This document shows positions 40,276 to 57,312 of a stretch of DNA of 64,000 bases, piece by piece. Both the position numbers and the translations under genes were made by a program. Numbering within the stretch: position 1 is the first letter of the stretch; every line of letters starts with the position of its first letter. The DNA is from Dactylellina haptotyla (Eukaryota > Ascomycota > Orbiliomycetes > Orbiliales > Orbiliaceae), in the NCBI GenBank assembly GCA_031310005.1, contig CM062380.1, positions 1,426,001 to 1,490,000 of the forward strand, given 5' to 3'. The notes beneath the pieces are model-generated. The model had not been told where the DNA came from and made no database searches. It saw nothing but the letters and a program-made list of their open reading frames with translations.

Positions 40276-42891
40276 TTAGTCGTGAATCTCCGCTATAGTC
40301 TTCTTGTTCCCCCCCTCAACCACAGACCACAGCTCAGAGCCACTCTCCGATCCACTGTCGCCCGCAGACTTCACCATTGTCTGACCCATGAGAACAAAGC
40401 GTAGCTCTTTTCCACCCCAAGCAACCTTCATTGACACCAATGGTAGCTCTACCAACAATGGCATCTCAGCTCCACTTGTGCCCGTGTCCATCTTCTCCCT
40501 ATTCAAACTAACGGATATGTTCCCGCTACTCTCTTCCGTCTGCCACTTAACACATATCACTCCCCATTTCCCCACTGGCACCTTAGCTTCAACTTGACCA
40601 AACAACCCCAATCGTGGTCGAAATCTCACGACAGCCCAGCCCGGTTCGGCGGGCTGCACGCCCGCGACCTCACCTAGGAACTCGTAGATGGGAGAAGAGC
40701 CCCAAGCATGACAATCGGAGCGTTGGGAGACTGCGTCTTCTTCCCAGGTCGTCAGGTTGAGCGCAAGTTGAGCTCGCCATGGAGCAAAGAAAGGTTGGAA
40801 GTAGGCGTCATAAAGGTTAGTTGGTTGGGAAAGAGATAATGCACGAAGGGTATAAAATGACATTGCGAGTGAAGGTTGCACGAACTTCAGGGTTGTTCTC
40901 AGCTGGCCGGAGTTACCAAAATAGTCTGAGGGAAATGCGGATGTCGAAGAGGAAAGGGATTGTGCAAGAATATAGTTGATTTGAGAGCCGGCGGCGGCGC
41001 CACAGAGAACAGCAAAAACTTGCGAGGTAACACTGTAATCCTCTTCTGGATGTGCGGTCTTTGCGAGCCCGTCGGTGAAGAAGTTGCCATCAAAGCAATG
41101 CTCCCGAATAGCTTTAACAACTACGTTGGTACGACTGGTGTATTCGTCGGCTAGGGATGGACGCTCAAGTGCTCGTAATAGAACAGATGCATTTTTGAGA
41201 GTATACGCGTAGAGTGCATTGGTATATGTTGAGAAGCCAGTGCGTTCTGCCGCGGGCGGAATCCCATGAGGGCGCCACTCCTCGGTCCAGTCTGTGAAAT
41301 CCCACATTCCAGCTGGATAGTTTGCAGAGGTTAATTCGAGATCTGGATCGATTCGAGAGTTGAAAAACTCAAAAATGCCGTCAATTACAGCGACGAATTG
41401 ACGAATGAAGGCCTTGTCGCCAAAGAAAGTGTAATGGTCGAAGACAGCACAAATCCAGTAGAGTGAGAAATTTGGTATAATCTGCGGTTGATGGCAGGGG
41501 CTTCGGCTAGCTGTAAGGCCGATGCTTGCATCGAAGGAATTGTGTATTTGGATCAAAGCTTGTCGTGCTAGTCGGTCATCGCCTGAAGCGTAGTATGTGA
41601 ACAGAACTGAGCTACGCATATCCATGCAATATTGAAGTTGCTCGTAGAACGGACAATCCTCGTAGCAGTCGTGCATGCAATTGTTGAGTGTCCGAATACT
41701 AGTTTCCCATAACTTCTCTGTAATTTTGTCGTCATCACCGCTAGACGTTTTCACGTTGAAACTAGCCCGGGTATCAAGCGGGTAGTTTGCGGTGGAGATG
41801 CTGATATTCCACAGACGCAAATCGGCCGGCCCGACATCGATCTGAAGCCCAATAAACCGAAAGGTTCGAAAATGGAATGGCGCGAATACTTCATGCCTTC
41901 CTTCGTTTTCATAGTATCCAAGACTCGATATGCCTTCGAAATCCCGGAATTCATAAACGTCATGCGGCCCGTACAACGCTTTAGAGTAATCTCGACGGTC
42001 GTCTTTCGAACGAAGATAAGGTATAAGGGGCGGTAGATCCTCGTAACTTTCAGCATATGTTACTTTTATGAGACTGCCTCCAACATTCGGCCGCTGAAAC
42101 CAAAATTCTAAAAATGCAGTCGTATGATGATCGACTTCCAGCTCTAGATAGTGTTTCGTGTTAGCCCCCAGATTTAGGCCCACGACGGGGTCATCACTAG
42201 AGACCCCAATTAGAGCATCTTTCCAATCCTCTTGCGGGATTGGACTATTTATATTATGAATGCCTGTGAAGCATAAACCTTCGGATCTGAAACTGGGGAT
42301 CATGCGTGGAGATAATTTCCAGGGTGCTCTTAGCCCCGTCGCGGCCTGGAACTCATGAACTTTGGCATGAGTCCATTCTAATTCCTTGATGCCGTGGTGC
42401 TTCTCGTAGATATGGAGAAAATCATCTTCCTCCAAGTCTGTCACGAGAAGAGCGCAAGAATCGACTGCGGTTTCCCAAGATGCGCTACTTTGGAACTCAG
42501 AGTGCCAAAAATTGTCGCAGCCGATAGGTCGAATCATCAGTCCGCCGACTGGTAATCGGGGAAAGCTGGAAGCATATTGTGTAGCATAGAAGAAACGTAG
42601 AACGTGGACAGCAATCTTATTCTCTCCAGATCTAAGAAAAGGCTGGATATCAAGCTCGTCGTAGAACCATAGTTTCTGGTCGCCTTTAACTGGGCCTGTT
42701 GCGACCAGCTTATGGTTCACGTATAGTTTATATCTGGTATCTGCCGTGATTTGTACTCTTAAAGGGTCCGTAGGAATGTTTTCGACCACAATGCTTTTTC
42801 GAAAGTGCACGAAGAGACCTGCGGTTCCTTGATGCTCCTCGCTGAAGTTTGGATGCCACATCCAGTCGCGGTTGACTTCTGGGGCAGCCAT
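40276..42891 (-). CDS. GH78-like alpha-L-rhamnosidase (six-hairpin glycosidase), intracellular, 871 aa
   Basis: One uninterrupted exon of 871 residues, a usual length for the family. The N-terminal part (about 1-380) is beta-rich: a jelly-roll with RVQITADTRYKLYVNHKLVATGPVKGD-like text (43-71, read in pieces), SGENKIAVHVLRF and FHFRTFRFIGLQI. From about 385 the (alpha/alpha)6 barrel begins. The key stretch YEDCPFYEQLQY (410-421) corresponds to the DCPxRDER motif of GH78; Glu417 is the candidate general acid. SQRSDCHAWGSSPIYEFL marks the C-terminal end of the barrel, followed by a small beta domain. No signal peptide is visible, so it probably acts inside the cell on imported rhamnosides. Divergent from the sugar transporter (820 bp between starts) and tail-to-tail with the regulator. 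Other six-hairpin activities cannot be excluded. Confidence 0.85.
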   Translation of the reverse strand: MAAPEVNRDWMWHPNFSEEHQGTAGLFVHFRKSIVVENIPTDPLRVQITADTRYKLYVNHKLVATGPVKGDQKLWFYDELDIQPFLRSGENKIAVHVLRFFYATQYASSFPRLPVGGLMIRPIGCDNFWHSEFQSSASWETAVDSCALLVTDLEEDDFLHIYEKHHGIKELEWTHAKVHEFQAATGLRAPWKLSPRMIPSFRSEGLCFTGIHNINSPIPQEDWKDALIGVSSDDPVVGLNLGANTKHYLELEVDHHTTAFLEFWFQRPNVGGSLIKVTYAESYEDLPPLIPYLRSKDDRRDYSKALYGPHDVYEFRDFEGISSLGYYENEGRHEVFAPFHFRTFRFIGLQIDVGPADLRLWNISISTANYPLDTRASFNVKTSSGDDDKITEKLWETSIRTLNNCMHDCYEDCPFYEQLQYCMDMRSSVLFTYYASGDDRLARQALIQIHNSFDASIGLTASRSPCHQPQIIPNFSLYWICAVFDHYTFFGDKAFIRQFVAVIDGIFEFFNSRIDPDLELTSANYPAGMWDFTDWTEEWRPHGIPPAAERTGFSTYTNALYAYTLKNASVLLRALERPSLADEYTSRTNVVVKAIREHCFDGNFFTDGLAKTAHPEEDYSVTSQVFAVLCGAAAGSQINYILAQSLSSSTSAFPSDYFGNSGQLRTTLKFVQPSLAMSFYTLRALSLSQPTNLYDAYFQPFFAPWRAQLALNLTTWEEDAVSQRSDCHAWGSSPIYEFLGEVAGVQPAEPGWAVVRFRPRLGLFGQVEAKVPVGKWGVICVKWQTEESSGNISVSLNREKMDTGTSGAEMPLLVELPLVSMKVAWGGKELRFVLMGQTMVKSAGDSGSESGSELWSVVEGGNKKTIAEIHD

Positions 42892-43711
42892 CTTGCCAGT
42901 CGCGGTTTAGCTCTGGTCTCCACTCACACGTATTCGGATGCCAAGGAACAAAATACAACAGCAACGACAAGAGAAGGCGGACGAAAAGGTAACGTGAGGT
43001 GAGAATTGCCGATACTGCAGATGGCATAATCAGCTCCAGCTCTGGCAAATGATATTTATGAGCAGGAGGTAGATAAGAAACGATAGAGCCTTGCAATCTT
43101 GATCTATTCCACCCAGCACTTTTTCTACGGAAACTACCCTCACACTTTCTGTCCGTGTGCGCACATGTCCGTTTGTTCAACGAATGCCGACAAGATAATC
43201 CGATGGCGTGCATGTTACCCCGGCACTCCCACCCAACATGCTCCGAGCCAACACCCAATCCGGGGCTTCTTATGCCATATGTTCGCAAGTTTTGGAGACG
43301 CTATGGCGCGCCACCACATTTTTATATCACAACAACCATACAAGCTGAGACAAGAAGTATCTCAACCATGGGAATCTCGACTGCCAATATGCCCCACGAT
43401 CTCACGACACCTGTGCCGTCTGTCACGCGTCGCGGAGAGATAACGGAAACGGTTTTGCCTCCACAGCTCGCTGATGGGCAGCGACCTCGCACAGCATATC
43501 GTCTCGTTTCTTCCCCACAAACCCGTCTCGGATCTCCAATCTCCCCGCAAATCACTTCGTAACGAGTTTCTAGATGGGATTTGTATAAATGAGATCAATA
43601 AACCCACCTAGAGTGCTCTTAATCAAACATCATCTTCAAAGTTCGCGAAAAATATATCCAATTATTTGCACCTAAACAACTCAGACGCGATCACCCATTG
43701 AAGTCGCAATC
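42892..43711. promoter_or_regulatory. Shared promoter of the rhamnosidase and sugar transporter genes
   Basis: 0.82 kb between divergent starts. Hexamers fitting the CreA consensus SYGGRG are at 43218-43223 (minus strand), 43260-43265 (plus strand) and 43392-43397 (minus strand). Glucose repression through CreA would suit a sugar-use module, but such hexamers are common, so this is inference. Confidence 0.45.
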
Positions 43712-45376
43712 ATGACTGGCGCGGCTGTAGCAGCTCCTTTTATGCCAGCAGGCAACATAGATACTTCCAAATGGTGGAGATACAAGGAGCTTCGAAACCT
43801 CAACTTCTTGTTGCTTGTACCTCTCTTGTCCATCTTCTCCCAAGGGTATGTGATAGCTCACAATATTATATCAAAAACCAAGCAGAATAACTAACAAGCT
43901 CATTAGGTTCGATGGCTCTATGATGAATGGTCTCCAGGCCGTCAGCCAATGGCGCCTGTACTTTGGAACACCCACCGGTGCCGTTCTTGGCCTTTTCAAT
44001 GCAGCCTACCCTCTGGGCGGTATTGTCGGTGTTTTTCTGTTCCAGATTGTCAGTGACCGCTTTGGCCGCAAGATTGGGCTCGCACTCGGCGCAGCAATCT
44101 CAGTCTTCGGAGGTGCTCTGCAAGCAGGTGCCATCAACCTCGCCATGTTTGTGATGGCCCGTGTTCTTTTAGGCGTCGGTTGCGTAGTTACCGCTGGTGT
44201 TGGCTCTCCTTTCATTACAGAGATCGCCCATCCTCACCAGCGTACAACAGCAACTGCCTTGTTTTTAACATTTTACTCTTTCGGTTCTATCATTGCCGGT
44301 TGGTCTACCTTTGGGACATTCCGTATTTCAAATAGTGCCGCGTGGCGTATTCCATCTGGTCTTCAAGCTTTGCCTTCATTAATTCAACTTATTGGTGTCT
44401 GGTGGTAAGTGGTCTACCCTCTTCGGGTATGAATAATAGAAATTGACTTTCTATCTAGGGTGCCTGAGAGTCCTCGATGGCTTGTTTCCAACGGCCGAAG
44501 CGATGAAGCCTGGGCCATGATCTGCAAGTATCACGCCAATGGAGTTGAAGATGACGAACTCGCGGTCTTTGAGTTTGAAGAGATCAAAGCAGCTGTAAAC
44601 AGCTTAGGCGAAAGCAAGCGCCCAGGATTCAAAAACGACCTACGCAACCTGACCGCCCTAGTCAAAACACCAGGAAACCGAAAGAGAACTGCCATCCTAA
44701 TCTGGGCTGCCATCATCTCCCAGCTTTCCAGCAATGCCTTCGTGTCATACTATTTATCCCCAATTTGACATCGGTGGGCTTAAAAACCGACCTCCAGCAA
44801 ACACTTATCAATGCCACTTCTCAGATGTTGTCATGGTTCAGCGCCATATATTTCGCTACACTCCCAGCAAAAGTCGGACGCCGTACTTTATTCCTCTGGT
44901 CTCTGGTTGCCATTTGGATCTGCGATATCTGTATTACCATTGGCAGCGCACTTTTCCAAAAGAACGGCAACAAGGTTGCCGGGTATGTCACTGTCGTCTT
45001 CTTGTATCTTTTCTCCCCAGCTTATAACCTTGGACTTAACGGCAACCTTGGCCTATACATCCCCGAGATCTTGCCATACGAGTCGCGTACCACTGGTTTG
45101 GCCGTGTTCTATTTCACACAAGGTTGCTTTAGCATTCTATCTTCGTTTACTACTCCGATCGGACTAGAGGCCATCGCCTGGAAGTTTTATATTGTCTTCG
45201 TGGGCTGGGTTGTAGTCGAATTTGTGGTCGTCTATTTATTATTTCCTGAGACTAAGGGTCCTTCGCTTGAAGATATCGCAATATTGTTTGATGGTGATAT
45301 CCATGTCCGTGGGAAACTCGCTCCGGAGGGCTTTGGTTCTAAGTCTGCTGTCGCCGAAGAAGTGGAGAAGGTGTAG
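43712..45376 (+). pseudogene. MFS sugar porter (lactose/rhamnose-permease type) with a one-base frameshift
   Basis: Exons 43712-43845, 43907-44404 and 44459-45376 encode a 12-TM sugar transporter. Family marks are DRFGRKIG in the loop between TM2 and TM3, VPESPRWL after TM6, the Gly-rich TM segments, and PETKGPSLEDIA near the end. In exon 3 the first frame ends at a TGA at 44766-44768, just after SYYLSPI. The homology continues at once in the next frame (TSVGLKTDLQQTL) to the normal C-terminus. The spliced length is 1550 nt, one short of a multiple of three, so one base appears to be missing at about 44762-44766. As written, translation gives 313 residues, about half the protein. This may be a true inactivating mutation or a sequencing error at the short C/T runs. 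Function if intact: proton-coupled sugar import; the neighbour rhamnosidase suggests a rhamnoside or rhamnose. Confidence 0.8.
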
Positions 45377-46738
45377 ATTGTGTTATAGAGTGTAAGGTAA
45401 ATTAGTTTTCTTGTTGAAATTATTGATATATTCTTATTTTTATTCAAAATGGTGATTAATTTGTGGAGTAGTATCAACCCTGTAAAGGTATAGCTACTAA
45501 ATTTGTCTAATTGTGCCACTTATAAGTTTGATAGAATTGAGAGTATAGGGAGAGCCGGACCGAACAGCACAGGGTTCCAGTTCCTCGTTTATATATAGCA
45601 AAGAGCGACTCCAAAACCACCGAGGGCTTCCTGCGCGCCACCACGAAGTTAAATTTAAGCCCACCAATAGGCCGTTTGCTAGGATACACCGACCGAATGT
45701 TTGAGCAGATGACAAGGGCTGACAAAAATATTTACCCTCATGGACCTAATTTACTGCGTATTGCCACCACGGATGTTTCATGCAATCGTTCCTCGAGTGA
45801 CACCCTTGACAGCATGCCTTTGGGTTATATGTGGTCGACAGGCTTCGATACAGTTATATGGGATGCAGTAACGTTGGCAGTTAAGCTTCTTGCTCAGCTG
45901 GCAACACGGAGCACGAGCCGAGCTCGGTATTTGTGCCTGAGTTCAAAATCCAGTTGACTTTTTGCACAAAGAAATTTTTAGCGGGCACCCAATACACCAA
46001 ACCGAACACGCGACATGGACTTGAAGTTGCGAAACTATGGAATATTCGTAGTCTCGTTGCCAGATGCTGATTTGGCTGCAGGTGAACAGTGTTGAGCCGG
46101 TTCGCAAGATGATTCTCGAGTATTGATTGCGATAATCAAATTCAAAGATTATTATTTCCTACCATCACAGGCAAGCGTCTGACCATCTTCCGGCGTCCAC
46201 GTTCAACCAGGGCCTTTTTTGTGATAGAACCCAATCGGAATCTTGAGTATGACCCTAGTGGACCCTCCCACACGGGATATCCACATATATGCAAGGTTTG
46301 TTATTTTCAGTCCAGAACCTGTAATCGAGTGACTATTTTGCGCAATTCCTGTTTGAAGCTGAGATATGAATATGCAACGCCCGCCTTGGGTGCAGATGAG
46401 CATATCTTCAATTGGGGTTTGAACCGACTGGATCCTTTTGCGAGGGAGAGGCGACTGGACCCATGTCGACAAGGTAGCCTGGTCGAATTTGTGGTGAGGC
46501 CCACCCACAATGTCCCCCCAGTTCCGAAATATCTGTCTGCTGAGGTTCTACATCAAAATGAGGGGTTGAGAGTCAGATATAATGGCGCCGCTGTAGCTTA
46601 GTCAATTAGGTCTGACATGGCTTGGGGGACGAACATGTTAACGTTGCCAAGTCATAAATAGTCGTAACATCATCGTGGCATCCTTAAATACTTCGTATCC
46701 TTTCCTTTTATATTTGTGGAACCAGATTGCAGATCAGA
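45377..46738. other. Intergenic region upstream of the NLR-like gene
   Basis: 1.36 kb. The left part is the transporter 3' end. A frame at 46221-46601 (126 codons) starts from GTG, has no ATG near its start and no recognisable domain, so it is not called. Just before the NLR start is a TTGCAG that could end a 5' UTR intron. Confidence 0.45.
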
Positions 46739-49700
46739 ATGGCGACGCTCATTGTACAGAAAGAAGTTTCTCTTCGCGTTGCTGTGAACCAATTGCCCCT
46801 TCATGGCGAAATCCCCCTAACTCCTGCAACTCCTGCGACTCCTGCAACACCGTTTCGCCAGACATTCCCAGAAGCAGCTAATCCCGTTTCCTGTTGGCAG
46901 GACGCCAAAAAGGCGTTCCGTGACGAGCTAATAGCTGAAAATGCAAAGGTCGACAAAGACGATCAAAAAATTGATAATAGGTATGGTAGGAAAGAAGTAA
47001 AGAAGCCCAAAAACGAAGAGGAGCTGCAAAAGCTTCAAAAGGACATAGATGTGTTTCTGGCCCAAAAAAAATCCATAACGTCAGTCATTCTATCGGCAGA
47101 GAAATTGACTTCAAGTGTTGATAAACGCTACCCGGAGGCTCTCACAAAATGCCTCCATATTATGCAAAAGACAAGAGAGGTGGGAGACGCGGTCCTCTCC
47201 AACGCACCTGAAATTGCCGCCGCAGTTTGGTACGGGATAAGCTTGTTCTTAGACGTGAGTACACCGCGATACCTGTCCATGCCATATTTCGCGAAATTAG
47301 CGTAATGAATGAATCTTTAACACGACAATCAATTTTCAAAATATAGTTAGTAGCCATAGACGTAAAGCGATGCGAGCTCATATCAAATATTTGCTATAAA
47401 TTTTCGAAGATCGTATTAAATTGTCGAGTTTTCGAACATAAATGCCGCGACACGGAGCTTACTGCTGATGCAGAAGTAATCAAAACAACTCTCGACAGCA
47501 TCACAAGTGTTCTGTCACAAATTCTTCGTTTCATCTGGTTCGCAGACCGGAAATTTCAGTTCGGAGAGGATAAAGTCAAAGGCAAAACAAGTATCCTTGA
47601 GAAAGCCAAAGCAGCTGCAAACATCGCCAGTGAGTCTCGGTTCATACCAGATATCTGTGGAAAGACGTATCGATATCAAGGTTCTATGACATGCTAACCT
47701 CAAAGATGAATGATAGAGACCCATGTGAAAAGCATTTTCGATGATCACACCGGCGAGAATTATGAGCGAGTGACGCAAAGATACCAGGAACTACTCGACA
47801 TGCAAACCATGAGCTTCAATGAAATAGTACTTTCATCTCTACGAGGTAAACTCCGTGTAGAAGTGGTGGAACACGATATTTAAAAAAAATCAAATCAACA
47901 GTTTTACTAAAGCGAATATAGAGACCAAAATGGGGACCGCGAAGACAAATGAATATCTCGAAGAAGTCCTATTTCCTAAGGCTAAAGGTACGTTACTCAT
48001 AGGTTCCTCTTAGTTTCACTATCCTGGTTATATCTAATAAGTTGACGATTACCTGGTAAATAGAAACATACGAAGTAGTCGCCAATATTAAATTGGTTTT
48101 GAGTACTATGTACGAAGAATTTCAAGAGGGGTTCGATAAGGTGGCGGTTACCAAAGATGTGGTGGAGAAAATGCAGGCAGGCATGGATGACGCCGAAAAG
48201 AAACGACAAATCGAAGAATATTACAAGAGCAATCTTCGATCGCGACAAACAGAGGCCCACAAACGACTTCTGGAGACAACTCTTGAGCCGTTACGCCGAG
48301 ATGATATCCACGACAGTGATTTTGGTGTCTGGTTATTCAAAGATCCGATGTATGAAACTTGGAAGCACGATATCTCAACTTTGTCCACTACAGATGGCAA
48401 TGAACAGGCAGCTCCAGATGAGGATCTTGCTTCTCAGGAGAAGGTCAACAGTTCGGGCAGCAAAAGCTCTAATGAGTCCTCCCAAACGATTCTATATCTC
48501 ACTGGCGAGGCAGGATTCGGGAAATCAGTCATCATGGGGCTTGCGATTGAAAAACTTCAAAGAGAGATGGAACCAAATGTCTTCTTTGGTCCCGTACAAA
48601 AGAAGCAGGAGCAGAACTTGCCGGTGCACCCAGAGAGTGAAAGTCTGAATCCGGTTGTTATCTTCTTCTTCTTCAAGAAAGGTGATAGCTCTACACAACT
48701 TGCAACGGCAGCAGCTCGGAGTCTCCTAGCTCAAGTTTTTCAACCAGAGCACCACAAGGAAGCTAGAATGCTGAACCCGATGTTGCGAGCGATAGACCGG
48801 TTGAAGGCGCCACAGTCAACATCAGAAAGCGAGGATTCAACTACAGTGCAGTCTGAAGAGTCGTTCTCTTATATAATTGGACAGCTAGAGACTGCAGTGA
48901 AAACGATCGGTAGGAAAGTATACCTGGTCATCGACGGTTTAGATGAATGCATTGATAGGCTGGAGCAAAACGTCGTCCCACGCCTCGCCCAATTAGCCAA
49001 ATTGAATACCGACATTTTCAGAATTCTGATATCGAGCAGAGTTGATCCAACTATCAAGAATGAACTTATCAACAATATGCAAGCCATTTCGGTAAAAATG
49101 ACAGAATCAACTCTAGAAGAAGAAGCAAAGATTCAAGATCCCTCAATACAAGAATCTGCCCCCAAAGACTCCACGCCTGAGACTACGAATAACGAGGAAA
49201 CAACAGAATCGCCTGCCTCAAACGAGACCCCCAAAGTTACTGTTCCTAATTCAAAAGGATACGAGTACCATGATGGTGCAATCATACTAAATATCAGCCG
49301 CGATACAAACTCAAAGGATATGTTAGCATTCCTCAACATATCTCTACGTGGTCTCATGCAACGTGGAAGACTAAAGGAATATTTCGTCAAAGAAGAGGAG
49401 AGGTACACACTCAAGATTAAGCCAGAATTTACGAAGTTTGAGGCCGTAATCGAAAATATGGCCAGACACATCCAAGAGAGGTCACACGGAATGTTTACCT
49501 ATAGTGCTATGACAATCACAAGTCTTCGCCAACCATCTGAACTGCGTCTGTCTCAGAGAATAAAGGGACTCCCAACAGGGATGAACCAGATTTACTCTTC
49601 GCAATTGAAATCGCTGACCGATGCGGAACGGAAGCTTGTCATGCTAGCTCTCACCCGGATCTATTGGAGCAATGTATGCGGTGTGGAAATGCACACGCTA

Positions 49701-52700
49701 GAAATTGTTGAACAATTCAAGAAACATTATGAGCATAGCTCCGGTATAGAGAACGCCGAACAGCATGAGGATGAATTCGAGTATGACCACCTCATGGATA
49801 ATACACCTACACAAAACTGCGATAACACGCATGATAACGCTATCGCAGATTCCCCAACCAGTGAAAAAGGTGTTAATATCATAGTACCAGAGCAGAGCCA
49901 AGCTCAAAAGAAACGGATCGGCCTCCATCGTCGCTCCAGCTCCTTCCACCACGAAGTCTACATGACAACTCAAATGAATAACCCAGAGGTAGCCGATGTT
50001 ATCTACCATTTGAGCAACGCGGGTCGTGATTTCTTCAAGTTCTCTAATGAAGACCGGAACATCGAATTCATTCATACTTCTGTGCGTGAATGGATGGATA
50101 GCCAAACCTCGGAGTCGGAGAAAACACTGCCGCAGACTATTCACGGTGCTCCCATGCTTTATAAACAGAACGATGAGTTTAAGATCTTACTTGCCGTTTC
50201 TAGTAAGTCAGATTTAACGAAATTCAATCACTGGCAATAATTTAAACTAATTACTGGTTAATGAAAAGGGGCCGAGTTTATGAGTGTCAGTGGCTCTACA
50301 TTTGACAGCGCACGCGACGCACATCTCGCTATATTAACGCATATTTGTGAGGACCTTTACCGCTTGAATTTGATTTAATTTTACTTTGACTGATTAGGAA
50401 ATCTACATCGATAGTGCAAGTTCTCACCCACCCGAAGTTTCAGGACATATACATGCCAGTCTGCGGTCTTCCTGATAAGATTATCAACATGTTTCCCGGC
50501 AAACATCAGTCTGATGATAATGATAGCGATGAAGAAAGCGATAACAAGAATGAGAACAGTAATAAAGAGGAGACTAAAAATGATAATAATGAGGACGAAA
50601 ACAGCAATCACAATACCGAGAACAAAGGTAACGAGGGTGGCGAGGGTGGTGAAGGTGAGAATATTGATACCGAGTGTAAGGGTGACGATGAAGAAAATAA
50701 TAAAGCGGAAGAGAAGGACACCGCCGACGATGAAGATGCGGCGACGGAAGACGAACTTCCGTACCCCTTAGGACCGAGGGAAGTTGCTGATGCAGAACAA
50801 GATACAGCTGTCGTTCCTCAACCGCATGAGCATGGAGAGCGGAAATCCCCATGGCGAGGCGAAATCCACCACTGGATCCACCATATGAGGGAGCTTGGTA
50901 AACTGCGATTAGATGAAGCGCGAAATTCTCCAGAATGGAATAAACTGCTGGAGCTTCTTCAAAATTTTACCAACTTGACCATATTTTGGAGATGGATCGT
51001 TCAATACAAACAGGTGACAGACGAGATTTCGTACGAGGAAGCTAAAGCCGAGTGGAGTTTCTGGGGCCCGGCACATCTGTCGGCGTGCTTAGATCTCACA
51101 ATTTACGAAGATTTCTTGCAGGACAACAGTCTATGCCTCTACTCTTTCTACCAACAACTCGGCGTTACCAATCGTTTACATTATGAGGATATATACTACT
51201 GTCCTAAACACATCGAAACTATAATACGGGAGCAGAATGATGTATCATCTCCAAGGGAGAGCGATGGTCTTATACCTTTCTTGATATGTCTTTCTTTACT
51301 CTATCCCGAACTTGAGAACAAAACTGGCGGCGCCTATACCAAGACACTAGAGTCATTGAAGCTTCTTGCTGGAAGTAAAGCGGACATGGGGTTAGACAAG
51401 TTTTTCCTAGAACAACCTTATACTCTTGCTTTACACCGAATCATCAAGATTGGAGATGAAGAACTTTTCGAGCTTGTTGCCAAAAACCCTACATTTAACC
51501 TGACTTGCCGCACCGAGAGTCAAGCTACAATTCTTCATACTATATTCTCAGTTGACGAAGACCTTCGAATACCCGTGGATTCACAACTTAAATTTGGAAA
51601 GAGGCTACTGGAGCTTGGCGCAGACCCTAATGCCGAGGATATGTCAAGCCGGATGCCTTTGTTCTGGGCAGTTCAAGCTCACAATGTGGAAGCCGTCAAG
51701 ATGATACTCGAATTCGAGTATCCTGAGGATACCAAAGTTATAATTGACGATACCGATGATAGTGGAGAAACCGCCCTCACATATATAACTTCGTTGTTCC
51801 AGGATGATATGATCACCGAGGGACTGGCTATAATCGATACGTTAGTTAAGCACGGGGCTTCTTTGGAATCCCCACCGAATTCTCGAACGCTGTCTCCTTG
51901 GGTAGGATCTCTTTGGATGGAAAATTGGCAGTACACTGCCAGACTCCTAGAGCATCACGCAGAGAAGTCGCCAGATAATCGAGATTATTTCAAGCACCTC
52001 GATGGAGATGGAGATGGAGTCATGCAACGCGCTCTTTTCGACTACAAGGAATCCAATACAATAAGAATGATGAAAACAGTTCTTGACCATCCACTCCTCA
52101 CTGAGGACGAACGAAAATCACTTATTGAAACACCACGAGGTTCTGCACCAGCAGGAGATACACCCTTACACCAAGCAATAGATAAGTGGGCACTTCAATG
52201 CGCACAATACCTCCTAGACCAAAACGCGAACTCTCAGGCTAAGAACTGGGCAGGCCGAACGGCGTGGGAGTTGTTCCTTTCCGGGCTCCTTGATAGCAAA
52301 TTCAAAAAAGACCAGGATTATAACGAAATAGAAGATACCGATTTAGCTGAGGTCCCCGCCCTTCGTATTTTGATTGACAGACTTCTCATCCCCGATATCT
52401 CCAAGATCGAATTTCCAACCCTGCTATCTGAAATACTCAGCATCAACTCACCAGTAATTCTCAAATATATCTGCACTAAGAAACTGGATTTCGAATCCGT
52501 CGACACTGGCGGTTGGGATTTCCACGATTGGGCATACGCTTGTGGTAAAACTGAATTGATATCGGGAGTCGAGAACTTTAATGTTGTCGATTACAACGTC
52601 CGTAAATCGAAATTCCAGGAAATAGGAAACACGCACATGAAGTGGAGTCCAGAAATTAAGCATCCAAAGATTCAAATTTCGGAAGACGGCCTAAGTATAT

Positions 52701-53541
52701 CTTTTGACAAGAGTGAACTAGAAGAAGGTAAGTGCTTCTATGCCCTAAAAAGTTTCTTCTTCCGTATTACTTACTCTCATATGTACAGGCGAGAAAACAG
52801 TCGCAGTATCCACCACTTCTCCTGTTTCTCCATACGCAGGTCTCTTCTACTTCGAAGTGACAATTTTAACGTGCGCCATGGAAAAAGAGTTAGTACAAAC
52901 ACTTATACCTTCGCGAATTCCGCTTTTTGGCCCTAAAAAAATCTGACTTGTGCTCGAAATTTAAAAGTGTGTTAATAGGAATTGGATTCGCATCCAATAA
53001 GCCACTGGTTGACCATATGCCCGGATGGCCGTTCCAGTCCTTTCTTGGCCCAGGTAAAAGCTATGGACTCCATGGCGACGATGGACGCTTGTATTCGCCA
53101 AGTATCGATACAGACGAAGAATCTACGAGTTGCCCATCTAAGACATTTCCAAACGGACCGGTCAAGTACCAGCTTGGAGATACCATTGGATGTGGTTACG
53201 ACCAAGATGACCATAACATATTTTGGACTCGTAATGGCAAGTTTTTGGGAGTTGCGTTTGAGGATGTTCGGGGTCAGTTATTCCCAGTTGTAGCAACAGA
53301 AGTTTCTTTTACCGCCAAAGCAAACTTTGGTTTGGAGCCTTGGATGTGGGATCAGCAGAGAGTAGTGGAGCCTATTCCTGAAGCAAATGAGGATACCACC
53401 GCTCTCAGTGAGGGTCCCGAGCCCGAGCCAGAGACCAACGTTGTCGACGATGGGACTGAAGGCGGCGAGAAGGAACCAGATGTACCTAACTTAGGCACTT
53501 CTGAGAAGGACGAAGATGGAGAGAAGGTGGTTGAGGAGTAG
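46739..53541 (+). CDS. NLR-like STAND protein: helical N-domain, NACHT NTPase, ankyrin-like repeats, C-terminal SPRY; 2065 aa
   Basis: Nine exons: 46739-47254, 47347-47629, 47717-47845, 47922-47987, 48064-50202, 50269-50346, 50415-52727, 52789-52888 and 52968-53541, all in frame. Residues 1-330 form a helical N-terminal domain typical of fungal STAND proteins (SNAPEIAAAVWYGISLFLD). The NACHT part has Walker A GEAGFGKS (479-486) and Walker B VYLVIDGLDECID (about 617-628), then a helical arm. Residues about 1099-1186 are an acidic Asn/Asp/Glu/Lys-rich linker. Ankyrin-like repeats lie at about 1438-1696 (LLELGADPNAEDMSSRMPLF, GDTPLHQAIDKWALQCAQYLLDQNAN). The end (about 1819-2003) is a SPRY domain: GLFYFEVTILTCAMEKD, VLIGIGFA, YGLHGDDGRLY, LGDTIGCGYDQDDHNIFWTRNGK. 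Fungal NLRs act in non-self recognition and programmed cell death; this role is inferred. Splitting into two genes near 50.3 kb is the main alternative. Confidence 0.83.
46819..46849 (+). repeat. 9-nt coding minisatellite (Thr-Pro-Ala)
   Basis: About three and a half copies of a CTCCTGCAA-type unit in the first exon of the NLR-like gene encode TPATPATPATP. Copies differ by single bases. It is a likely length-variable site between strains. Confidence 0.7.
50505..50760 (+). repeat. Low-complexity acidic coding tract in the NLR-like gene
   Basis: Repeated GAT/AAT/GAA/GAG codons give a run of Asp, Asn, Glu and Lys, including a short GGEGGEGE repeat. It links the NTPase half to the ankyrin half and is probably disordered. 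Confidence 0.7.
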
Positions 53542-54661
53542 CATATATGCCCTTCCAGTTAAAAAAAAACAGGCACAATCAATTCGCCAGCTCGAGCTAC
53601 TTTGTAATACATGATATATGGCAGGGCGCAATATATGGGATAGATGGATTTCTATGATCAATATTATTATGTCTCGACGATTCCCTAGGAACTATTTTAG
53701 TATTTCATACAAGAACAAATCGGCTAGCCCATGTTTTGACTCGAATACAAATGCGCAATACCCGTTTGACCTGATTTTAATTGTCGAGAATTGGAATCGG
53801 ATGCAGGCACACGTTGCTGTGGGTCCAATCCAGGCGCCTCGCTTAATGGCATTGGTTGGTAGCTTTCGAGGAACCTGCGGGAACAGGACCAATTAAAGAG
53901 AGCCCAGCGAAATGACAGCTGGGGACAAGCAGAACCGTTGACCGCATGTATAAAACAAGACAATATATCCGTTGACAGTAATGTGGCATGTAATAATGGG
54001 TACTTAGTATTCAAGTGTCGATGATATATATCAGAGAGGCCCCGAGGATTGCTCCGGGCCACAGACAACTCTCATCTGATACGACTTATCAAACAGACAC
54101 ACCGGTCCATGCAGTATCTGTTAGAGGTGCTGTGTATGATAGATTGCTTGCTTGCCCGCCTTCATCAAACAAGGACGGACCAGCGGTCAACTGACTCGGT
54201 CGCTAAAGCCGGCCTGACCAGGTCCCACCCCGCTGGCAGCAAACTACAGCCACCATCTCGACTTTCCGACGGTCGTCTCCCAGAATCGACGTCGGAGGGA
54301 ACCCGCGTACTCCTCAGACCCCCTTGCGGTGCTATTCCTACCTTCTCGTTGTTGCCATCGTCGTTACTTGCCGTTGTGGTTGAAGATTCCCGTTGGGTGC
54401 GCCGACTCAAGGATCAATAGCGCTGCTGGTTGAGGGTAACCAGCCAACCCAACGCCTCGCCACCAAGTCCAACCTCAACTTCAACGCATCCTCTTCGTTC
54501 GCTGCCCCGTCCTCCCAAAGCAACAGAGCCCTCCACCAAAGAACAGGCCGGAGCCCGGCTTCACCACCTTCCTTCCAGCTTCATCAGGCATCTCACCCTC
54601 TGGAGAGCCTCGCCACCTTCTTGCCACTGCTTGCCGGCTACCTCGGGTAGCTTCCACGAGC
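53542..54661. promoter_or_regulatory. NLR 3' end and VPS9 upstream region
   Basis: 1.1 kb between two plus-strand genes. From about 54170 the sequence becomes CT-rich and continues into the VPS9 start, as in long fungal leaders. The frame at 54049-54420 and others here have no domain support. Confidence 0.5.
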
Positions 54662-57312
54662 ATGCAAAACCACATCGAGGCATCCTCACTCACCCAACGA
54701 CAGCATGCCCAACAACTCCCAGAGCCCCCCTCGCCTGCGATGACGATAACCGACGCCAAAGAATGGGTAGAATCTCCCACCAACCCGGCCGCGATGCCAG
54801 CGGCTACCGGCCCAGCTAGCGACCCCGTCTCCACGGATGCAGGGACACCTATCGCTACCGCCGGTAACACCGAATCAGATCTCTCCACATCACTCGGCAA
54901 GCTTGACATCTCGTCTACCACCCCAAAACCGCTGCAGCAGTCCCTGTCGCAGACTCTCCCCAGCTCGCCTCCAGCTCCAGCTCCTCCTCCTAAGGACAGG
55001 CCGCTACCCGCTCCTGAGGACGTGCTGTCAAAAGCAGAAACAGCTCATCAGAAGCAGCCTTCTTCCACTCCTTCGGCTCTACCTGCCCTACCGCACACCG
55101 AAAATGGCAGGCTACACCCCGGCTTTTCCAAATCCCATACACGTTCGATGTCTGGATCGTCGATACTCGACGGCGAAGAGGAAGACAATCAGGATACGAA
55201 GGGCGAGATTAGAAGTATAATGTCCCAATTCTCTCCAAAGTTGCAACCTCAGCCCGACATCAAAGACGAGAAATCAGCCGAAGCTTCCAATACGTCCCTC
55301 GAAAATCCGCCTCTCTCTCCTATCCCACCTCGTACATCCAGCCTCGAAAACTTAATGACTGTCGACCGAATCCCTGAGTCGAATCGCTCACCGGTTAATG
55401 AAAAGCCTCTGCCTACCCCCCAACTCAACCGTCGCTTCTCTACAACTCTCGACCCTCACTCCCCTTCAGAACCCGCACCACCTCCCCCGGGACCTGACCC
55501 AGAGCCGCCTCAACCCTTCGACTTTCACCGCTTCCTCGAACAACTTCGTCACCGCACTGCTGACCCCGTTGCCCGCTTCCTCCGCTCTTTCCTGAACGAA
55601 TTCAGCAAGCGTCAATGGCTTGTCCACGAACAAGTGAAAATCATTGCCGATTTTCTAGATTTCATCCACGGCAAAATGGCACTCTGCGAGGTCTGGCGTG
55701 AGGTCTCAGACGCAGAATTCGATAATGCCAAGGAAGGCATGGAAAAGCTCGTCATGAATAGATTATACACACAGACATTTTCCCCATCAATCAACCCACC
55801 CGCGTCACCTTCAAATAAACGAGGGAAAGGCCGACAGAATCCTAATATGCCAGGCAGACGAGGGCAGCATCAGGAGGACATCGAGCGGGATGAAATCCTA
55901 GCACAGAAAGTTGCCATATACGGATGGGTACGGGAAGAGCACCTGGATATACAGCCAGTAGGGGACAGTGGGAGAAAGTTTTTGAGCTTAGCTTGTCAGG
56001 AGCTACTGAAGATCAATAACTACAGGGCGCCGAGGGATAAAGTCATATGTGTGCTTAACTGCTGTAAAGTCATATTTGGTATGAGCCTAGTTGATCTAAG
56101 CACTTCAAAGTAATAATGCTAACCATAGGTTGCTCTTATATAATAGGACTGTTACGCCACGCAAACTCTACGCAATCTGCCGACGAATTCGTCCCGTTAT
56201 TGATTTACGTTGTCCTCCGTGCCAACCCAGAACACCTTGTTAGCAATATCCAATATATTCTACGATTCCGGAATCCGGATAAGTTGGGTGGTGAAGCAGG
56301 TTATTATCTATCGTCGTTGAGCGGGGCTATACAGTTTATAGAAGGGCTGGATAGGAGTAGTTTAACAATCAATGACGAAGAATTCGAAAAAAACGTAGAA
56401 GAGGCGGTTCGGAAGATTGCAGAGAAGAAGGAGCCGTTTAGCCCAGTCGTGAGCTTAACGAAGGGAGCTGTCAGCAACGAAGCCGCCGTGCAGCAGAGAA
56501 GCATGTCGCTATCCGCTGCAGTAGCCAGCGGGCCGAGCACGGGATCAGGAGATGAAAGCGGAGGTACTAGCAGGCGGAAGAGTATGGATTCTCGAGTAGA
56601 CGGGCCTCCTGCACCGGCAGACGAAGAAAAGGCTGCGGTTGCGGGATTATTAAGAACGATACAGAAGCCTTTGAGCACAATCGGCCGAATCTTCGGGGAT
56701 GATTCGGCATCGCAATATCAGCAGCAGCAGCAGCAGTTGCACGCGGCCACCACGGATGCCAGGCCGGTTAGTACGCCATTACCGGGTAATACACCGAGAA
56801 CCAGTCCTGGGCCAACTGGTGATACACAGGAAGGGCAACCAGGAGAACAAACACCAGCGAATGGATTCCCTGGTGCGAAATATCGGCAGCAGGAAGCCGC
56901 GCTGGAGGCCGCGGAAAGTGCGGCTAGACAGGCGAGTGCGGAGACCGCAGAAGCAATAAGGATACAGAGGGCGGAGCATGAGAATACTGTTGGGTTAGTC
57001 TGACTTTCAAAAACACCTACCCTTGTGGAATGGACCGAGCTAACAACCTCTAGAATATTATCATCCATGTTCCCAGACCTAGATAAGGATATCATCGATG
57101 ACGTGGTGAGGATGAAGGAAGGGAGGTTAGTAAGCTTTTTCGATCCCATTACCTTCTGGTTCACATAAATGTATGAAATGGATACTTTTCATTTGTCGTG
57201 TCTCGAAGACGTTGGTTTCCTTCCTTGCTAAAGAATAGCGATGCTAATGGATTGGCGATTATGGTATAGGGTCGGTTTAGCGGTTGATGCATGTCTGGCG
57301 TTGAGTTCTTGA
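54662..57312 (+). CDS. VPS9: Vacuolar sorting protein VPS9: Rab5/Vps21 guanine exchange factor, 792 aa
   Basis: Four exons: 54662-56078, 56147-56993, 57054-57125 and 57270-57312. The frame closes at 792 residues. Residues 1-284 are Pro/Ser/Thr-rich and probably disordered. A helical bundle lies at about 285-370 (PFDFHRFLEQLRHRTADPVA, WLVHEQVKIIADFLDFIHGK). The VPS9 domain is at about 410-560: DKVICVLNCCKVIFG joins across intron 1 to LLRHANSTQSADEFVPLLIY, with Asp485 as the conserved catalytic-site acid, then NPEHLVSNIQYILRF and GGEAGYYLSSLSGAIQFIE. After a linker with coiled-coil character, the last two small exons complete a CUE domain (SSMFPDLDKDIIDDVVRMKEGR, then VGLAVDACLALSS), which binds ubiquitin. 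VPS9 activates Rab5-type GTPases on endosomes for transport to the vacuole. An alternative acceptor at 56129 would insert six residues but is not needed. The ATG at M27 is another possible start. Confidence 0.92.

Follow-up and report, generated by a model that had tools for sequence, protein, structure and literature searches.

What kind of receptor is encoded between positions 46,739 and 53,541 of a 64,000-nucleotide stretch of the genome of the ascomycete Dactylellina haptotyla (assembly GCA_031310005.1, contig CM062380.1, positions 1,426,001 to 1,490,000; this whole stretch is called the window below), and where did its last domain come from? An initial annotation, made from the letters alone, had proposed a NOD-like receptor (NLR) of about 2065 residues, composed of a NACHT-type nucleoside triphosphatase (NTPase), ankyrin repeats and a SPRY domain, and had considered it the window's best candidate for an undescribed system. 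The protein itself was borne out, since the splicing of nine exons yields 2065 residues in which Pfam matches NPHP3_N, ankyrin and SPRY. Its architecture is ordinary and already in print, and what is mildly new is the origin of the SPRY domain: judging from the comparisons described below, the last domain of the gene, with its introns, looks to have been copied from the fungus's own RanBPM/Gid1 ubiquitin-ligase gene. Our reading as a whole, which we hold to be fairly probable, is that this is one intact-looking fungal NLR gene with a SPRY domain derived from RanBPM/Gid1, that its family in this genome has 20 or more members, and that its product would act as an intracellular switch of the immune type, controlled by the ankyrin-SPRY end and provided with an N-terminal output. 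What the sequence comparisons establish are the parts and their order, the intact NTPase motifs, the existence of the family, the intron phases in common with RanBPM, and a SPRY that has for the most part descended together with the NTPase.

In the genome that was searched (39.8 Mb, 11 contigs) the window corresponds to C2:1426001-1490000. The nine-exon model, on the forward strand, gives one stop-free protein, and its exons are joined by eight GT-AG introns of 61-92 nucleotides (Table 1). A Viterbi gene finder written for this analysis, and trained on the long open frames of the window and the loci, including frames of the gene itself, reproduced exons 1-8 exactly. The 3' end was mis-modelled and the last join was not recovered, and a run with a stricter exon rule fused exons 7 and 8 and divided exon 9, therefore the last joins and the boundaries of the SPRY exons were set by means of open frames, the scores of the splice sites and a comparison with paralogues. 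The phase-0 intron after the SLFLD-like motif at the end of exon 1 was found again in paralogues. Eight models that skip the mini-exon 6, with products of 2028-2042 residues, were rejected, as a counterpart of 57-87 nucleotides is present in 15 of the 19 paralogue models. The modest splice score of the last intron (3.9) and the failure of the gene finder at the last join would suit a fusion, by the model, of two adjoining genes, one for an NLR that ends in ankyrin repeats and one for a SPRY protein. However, exon 7 holds both the ankyrin repeats and the first SPRY strand, an arrangement that recurs in the paralogues, and the SPRY domain is found at the same place in all 20 loci of the family described below. 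For this reason we regard the locus as one gene, and have rejected the two-gene reading as very improbable.

When the spliced protein was compared with Pfam, NPHP3_N was matched at residues 467-657 (E = 4e-21), Ank_2 at 3.8e-11 and Ank at 1.8e-7, all above their cut-offs, Ank_4 was also matched, and a single SPRY domain was placed at residues 1861-1997 (8e-14, score 52.2 versus a cut-off of 26.3). The initial annotation had pointed to the families SPRY, ankyrin and PF05729 (NACHT), and the first two were found. PF05729 gave no match on the spliced protein up to an E-value of 1, nor does this gene appear in the 49 matches listed; the related NPHP3_N model fits instead. Since PF05729 is without a match, it is this sister model, together with the motifs, that supports the NACHT-type class. 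The motifs were aligned in 20 rows, comprising the window gene, 18 paralogues and one outgroup, with the diverged locus L017 left out. The P-loop GEAGFGKS, the Walker B motif VYLVIDGLDECID and the SSR sensor align with all 18 paralogues and the outgroup, and the HxSVREW-like motif IHTSVREW with the 18 paralogues, the outgroup row being a gap there. A comparison of the NTPase exon with solved structures gave only two weak matches, to a designed repeat protein. An AlphaFold model of exon 7, made with 16 sequences (predicted template modelling score, pTM, 0.63), consists of a helical stack and a low-confidence acidic insert. Compared with the PDB, this stack gave 462 matches at E ≤ 0.001, with a best value of 5e-11, indicating the ankyrin fold, and the best 50 of these 462 are mostly ankyrins and designed ankyrin repeat proteins (DARPins).

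The N-terminal region of the window protein would be of the helical DUF7708/NACHT_N/Goodbye kind, as in its relatives. DUF7708 was matched above the cut-off in L010, L011 and L020, three of the eight paralogue N-termini that were scanned, and NACHT_N and Goodbye gave sub-threshold matches in some of the eight. PF24809 has eight matches genome-wide, none of them at the window gene.

The gene is one of many of its kind. Genome-wide, Pfam SPRY has 17 matches, 14 of which are preceded on the same strand, about 3.5-5 kb upstream, by an NPHP3_N match, and the idea that SPRY is rare in this genome was therefore rejected. NPHP3_N itself has 121 matching pieces, several belonging to one gene; these counts from the genome search are lower bounds. 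We assembled a family set of 20 loci from the window gene, 13 loci with both NPHP3_N and Pfam SPRY, and six loci that are related in their NTPase but in which Pfam found no SPRY. With an iterated SPRY profile the domain was found in all 20, and at least 20 NTPase loci in this genome have a downstream SPRY. A profile built without the six relatives lacking a Pfam match still matched those six, with E-values from 4.6e-16 to 2.7e-10, and it recovered, as expected, the SPRY genes of RanBPM (L001) and L002. The same held-out profile found nothing in the control NLR loci L028, L029 and L030, the only three used as negative controls, or in the rest of the window. When the NTPase of L022 was used as query, the matches with E-values up to 1e-5 comprised 19 of the 20 family genes, L017 being missed, and a weak outgroup at C1:1862790 (L028), for which no SPRY was found in the 5.4 kb examined. 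The ankyrin-type consensus is present in the 16 sequences that were aligned for this part, with L017, L018, L020 and L024 outside this ankyrin check. The NTPase and SPRY trees agree on an eight-gene group and on the pairs L019/L027, L024/L025, L014/L016 and L013/L015, which argues that the SPRY domain has mostly descended together with the NTPase, an exchange involving L017 being possible. The branch of L017 in the NTPase tree is too long for placement.

Two observations on the family may be recorded here. Contig C2 carries five members, namely the window gene and the four loci that match its NTPase best, and these are dispersed rather than clustered, at about 0.19, 1.18, 1.48, 3.62 and 4.04 Mb. 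Locus L017 (C1:6461400-6470200) is a SPRY-ended NLR with a very diverged NTPase and a different N-terminus, in which there is a GYGLGG motif and, below the cut-off, a weak match to a serine esterase (DUF676, E = 0.12), and which we take to be reminiscent of SesB-type NLRs. Its SPRY pairs with that of L012 (99/95), and its composition may possibly reflect domain shuffling onto the same C-terminal layout.

To which SPRY proteins is the last domain related? Among solved structures, the window SPRY matched RanBP10 and RanBP9 chains at 5e-18 to 2e-16, with RanBP10 best at 5.4e-18, whereas the best SPRY outside RanBP9/10 was found at 1.4e-5 and every other listed SPRY at 1e-5 or worse. None of the 23 PDB sequences that match up to E = 0.01 is a TRIM/B30.2 chain. 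The window SPRY shares the YG.HGDDG motif with the RanBPM-type SPRY, and is 38% identical to RanBPM across the matched part. Three Pfam SPRY matches in the genome belong to genes other than NLRs. L001 is the genome's RanBPM/Gid1 gene, with SPRY, CTLH (1.1e-27) and LisH (2.5e-4, just below the cut-off); L002 has its SPRY in a frame that contains a hydrophobic stretch, and is presumably Ssh4/Ear1-like; L031 we take to be Ash2/Bre2-like. Two introns interrupt the SPRY of L001, one of phase 1 that follows the first strand (SQDGLDVQFL) and one of phase 2 directly before IGVGF. In the NLRs, the corresponding intron A lies in the first loop, in phase 1, in 7 of the 7 loci that were testable out of 20, although for L011 and L021 a lower-scoring acceptor was taken that keeps more of the domain, with no change of phase. 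Of the 12 loci testable for intron B, 11 have it in phase 2, ahead of the I/V-G motif; the remaining eight of the 20 gave no anchor. Intron B occupies the RanBPM column in 5 of 10 aligned NLRs, lies within one column in three, including the window gene, and 10-11 columns away in L014 and L016. The two other stand-alone SPRY genes found, L002 and L031, have neither intron, their frames being continuous at both sites. The shared intron phases and loops, together with the ranking of the PDB matches, are good grounds for a common ancestry of the SPRY exons in the NLRs and in RanBPM. Since RanBPM is ancient and widespread, the NLR would be the receiver of the domain.

Several results weigh against this reading, or against parts of it. 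Yeast Vid30, itself a Gid1, matched the window SPRY at only 1.8e-5. Intron A lies at the exact RanBPM column in just one of the seven NLRs (L009), the other six having it inside the same length-variable loop as the RanBPM intron, and L027 reads through the site of intron B without an intron. Good support is limited to 3 of the 19 inner branches of the SPRY tree, in which both RanBPM (L001) and L002 fall, without resolution, within a mixed group of 14 rows. The two trees also differ, as the partner of L012 is L009 in the NTPase tree versus L017 in the SPRY tree, and the pair L018/L022 is present in the NTPase tree only. In only 6 of the 20 loci does the automatic gene model cover the SPRY piece in frame to at least 90%, thus in the remaining loci it is position and strand that link the SPRY to the NLR. 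Finally, Pfam matches nothing in the N-terminus of the window protein, and the model of the family N-terminus, made from an alignment with at least one clearly misplaced row (L010:2711-3100), is poor (pTM 0.28) and has no PDB match at E ≤ 0.001, so that any output ascribed to the receptor is a guess.

The conservation of the individual domains bears on what the SPRY does. We compared 13 pairs chosen within subgroups of 19 genes, leaving out L017 and the outgroup, and using crude domain windows and SPRY pieces that were trimmed by hidden Markov model and in part truncated. With these windows, mean identity was 49.9% for the N-terminus, 44.8% for the NTPase, 53.8% for the winged-helix region, 33.5% for the ankyrin part and 45.0% for the SPRY. 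The ankyrin part was the least conserved domain in 11 of the 13 pairs and the SPRY in two, thus the SPRY is not singled out as the fast recognition part. In the four pairs that include the window gene (with L010, L011, L014 and L016) the SPRY was in each case better kept than both the N-terminus and the NTPase (the two lying within 46739-50202), whereas in all nine pairs without the window gene the N-terminus was better kept than the SPRY. This last result, like the two pairs in which the SPRY is the least conserved domain, would fit a generic protein-binding SPRY that was acquired for recognition and resembles RanBPM no more than SPRY domains in general do. Such a module would sense non-self directly, in the way proposed for fish NLR-B30.2. 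That RanBPM was not resolved as the nearest relative in the SPRY tree speaks for such a module too, as does the proposal of SPRY as a sensor in the accessible part of PMC12258605. Against it stand the greater divergence of the ankyrin part, the two intron phases and loops that are common to the NLRs and RanBPM and absent in L002 and L031, and the difference between RanBP10 and the best solved SPRY outside RanBP9/10, and we consider a generic sensor of this kind somewhat unlikely.

How does the gene compare with known systems? Fungal HET/NWD-type and ankyrin NLRs combine a NTPase of the STAND class (signal transduction ATPases with numerous domains) with a repeat domain, as the window gene does. 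The window gene differs in that near-identical repeat units were not found in 46500-54000, where there are just two short tandem arrays. RanBPM/RanBP9/RanBP10 and yeast Gid1/Vid30 resemble the window SPRY in sequence, in the YG.HGDDG motif and, for L001, in two intron phases and loops; but RanBPM/Gid1, the scaffold of the GID/CTLH E3 ligase, has LisH and CTLH after its SPRY, whereas in the window NLR, which has no Pfam match to either, the SPRY stands behind ankyrin repeats. The idea of an undescribed system did not hold: according to the accessible part of PMC12258605, SPRY occurs in 46 of 4613 NLRs from 82 Sordariales genomes, always C-terminal and always with ankyrin. This is the layout of the window gene, ankyrin repeats and then a single C-terminal SPRY, and the same source suggests the SPRY as a sensor and mentions the fish NLR-B30.2 proteins. 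The numbers differ, with 46 genes across 82 genomes in the Sordariales against at least 20 loci in this one genome. The terms RanBP, Ran-binding, VID30 and GID complex do not occur in the main text of PMC12258605. Among the matches listed for RanBPM/Gid1 with NLRs, or for SPRY-NACHT-ankyrin in Ascomycota, a RanBPM/Gid1 origin of the NLR SPRY was not found in the titles and abstract beginnings, most subscription journals being outside the coverage. In two nematode-trapping fungi NACHT and SPRY genes are among the highly expressed genes, as stated in the accessible part of PMC3828140. The parallel with fish NLR-B30.2 drawn by the initial annotation is correct in so far as both are NLRs with a C-terminal SPRY fold. 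It is a loose one, as the fish tail is PRY-SPRY and that of the window gene is a RanBPM-type SPRY, without a match to the PRY families up to an E-value of 1, and with introns in common with the fungal RanBPM gene that suggest shared descent.

The coordinates of the features are collected in Table 1. Downstream of the gene, a VPS9-domain protein is encoded at 54440-57003 on the forward strand (DUF5601 1.3e-17, VPS9 1.5e-21). Upstream, the forward-strand frame 44579-45376 resembles, by eye only, the end of a major-facilitator sugar transporter, and on the reverse strand a frame at 40279-42906, open for 876 residues, matches a glycosidase of the alpha-L-rhamnosidase type (9.3e-15). Rfam gave 0 matches on the window, and the pairs found by a repeat search look like chance.

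Table 1. Features of the SPRY-ended NLR gene, in positions of the window (pLDDT, predicted local distance difference test).
Feature	Position	Strand	Remarks
Exon 1	46739..47254	+	Residues 1-172, with the start codon and a low-complexity stretch (TPATP); beginning of N-terminal region
Exon 2	47347..47629	+	N-terminal region, continuing
Exon 3	47717..47845	+	Spliced model and gene finder
Exon 4	47922..47987	+	Spliced model and gene finder
Exon 5	48064..50202	+	End of N-terminal region, STAND NTPase, winged-helix-like region
NPHP3_N / NACHT-type NTPase domain	48468..49040	+	Pfam; P-loop GEAGFGKS at 48504-48527
NIEFIHTSVREWM, motif downstream of NTPase	50058..50096	+	Alignment with 18 paralogues
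Exon 6 (78-nucleotide mini-exon)	50269..50346	+	Spliced model, gene finder, paralogue counterparts
Exon 7	50415..52727	+	Acidic insert, helical part, ankyrin repeats, first SPRY strand
Acidic low-complexity insert	50486..50842	+	Asp/Glu/Asn-rich, about 119 residues (exon residues 24-142), near start of exon 7; pLDDT under 50
Ankyrin repeats, Pfam-detected span	51596..52246	+	Predicted helix pairs extend to either side
First SPRY strand ISEDGLSISF	52676..52705	+	On ankyrin exon (exon 7)
Intron A	52728..52788	+	Phase 1; RanBPM gene with same phase and loop
Exon 8	52789..52888	+	Second part of SPRY (AGLFYFEVTIL)
Intron B	52889..52967	+	Phase 2, directly before IGIGF; splice score 3.9 (modest)
Exon 9	52968..53541	+	Remaining SPRY (to about 53334), acidic C-terminal tail, stop codon

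STAND proteins oligomerise under the control of a nucleotide, driven by their sensor end. If the window protein works in this manner, its ankyrin-SPRY end would keep the resting protein off, and the binding of a partner or foreign protein to this end would bring about nucleotide exchange and oligomerisation. The clustered N-termini would then trigger a response of the cell, for which regulated cell death or a reaction to non-self would be the most likely form. Ligand specificity would probably be set by the fast-diverging ankyrin stack, and the more conserved SPRY would probably bind a more constant partner, perhaps one that is also bound by RanBPM/Gid1. A bolder version, which we regard as unlikely, is that an NLR lineage took the SPRY exons of RanBPM/Gid1 with their introns and grew to about 20 genes. 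The SPRY of these genes would be an integrated bait, or an anchor, to which partners of GID/CTLH bind, and the NLRs would in this way watch the state of a conserved ubiquitin ligase while the ankyrin part diversifies.

The SPRY might also be an integrated decoy, a mimic of Gid1/RanBPM that traps a parasite or viral protein attacking the GID/CTLH ligase. This is a sub-case of our preferred reading, with which its probability overlaps, and we consider it improbable. It would agree with the likely origin of the SPRY from RanBPM exons and with the SPRY having been taken alone, CTLH and LisH being without a match in the NLR, and the integrated-decoy idea has already been raised for kinase domains of fungal NLRs, as the accessible part of PMC12258605 states. 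However, with 38% identity to RanBPM in the matched part the capture must be old, and therefore the original binding face may be gone. Furthermore, the gene could encode a STAND switch outside immunity, with a role in, for example, secretion, development or organelle control, or the locus could be heading to decay. There is a precedent in a fungal NACHT protein with another role, Ncp, linked to secretion in the accessible part of PMC13311144. The acidic insert and the long NTPase branch of the window gene (2.16 versus a median of 0.57, in a row that included part of this insert) would also be compatible with such a role or with decay. Yet 2065 codons are open and the NTPase motifs are kept, and recognition proteins typically form large and diverse families of paralogues, which makes this alternative doubtful.

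Returning to the reading of an NLR with a SPRY from RanBPM/Gid1, what it adds to the known layout is a measure of how large the family is within a single genome, together with an origin of the SPRY that can be tested. If it is true that these NLRs carry a copy of a domain from a ubiquitin-ligase scaffold, the proteins that bind GID/CTLH would become candidate partners of receptors that are ligand orphans, and the family would provide a fungal parallel to the integrated domains known from plant NLRs.

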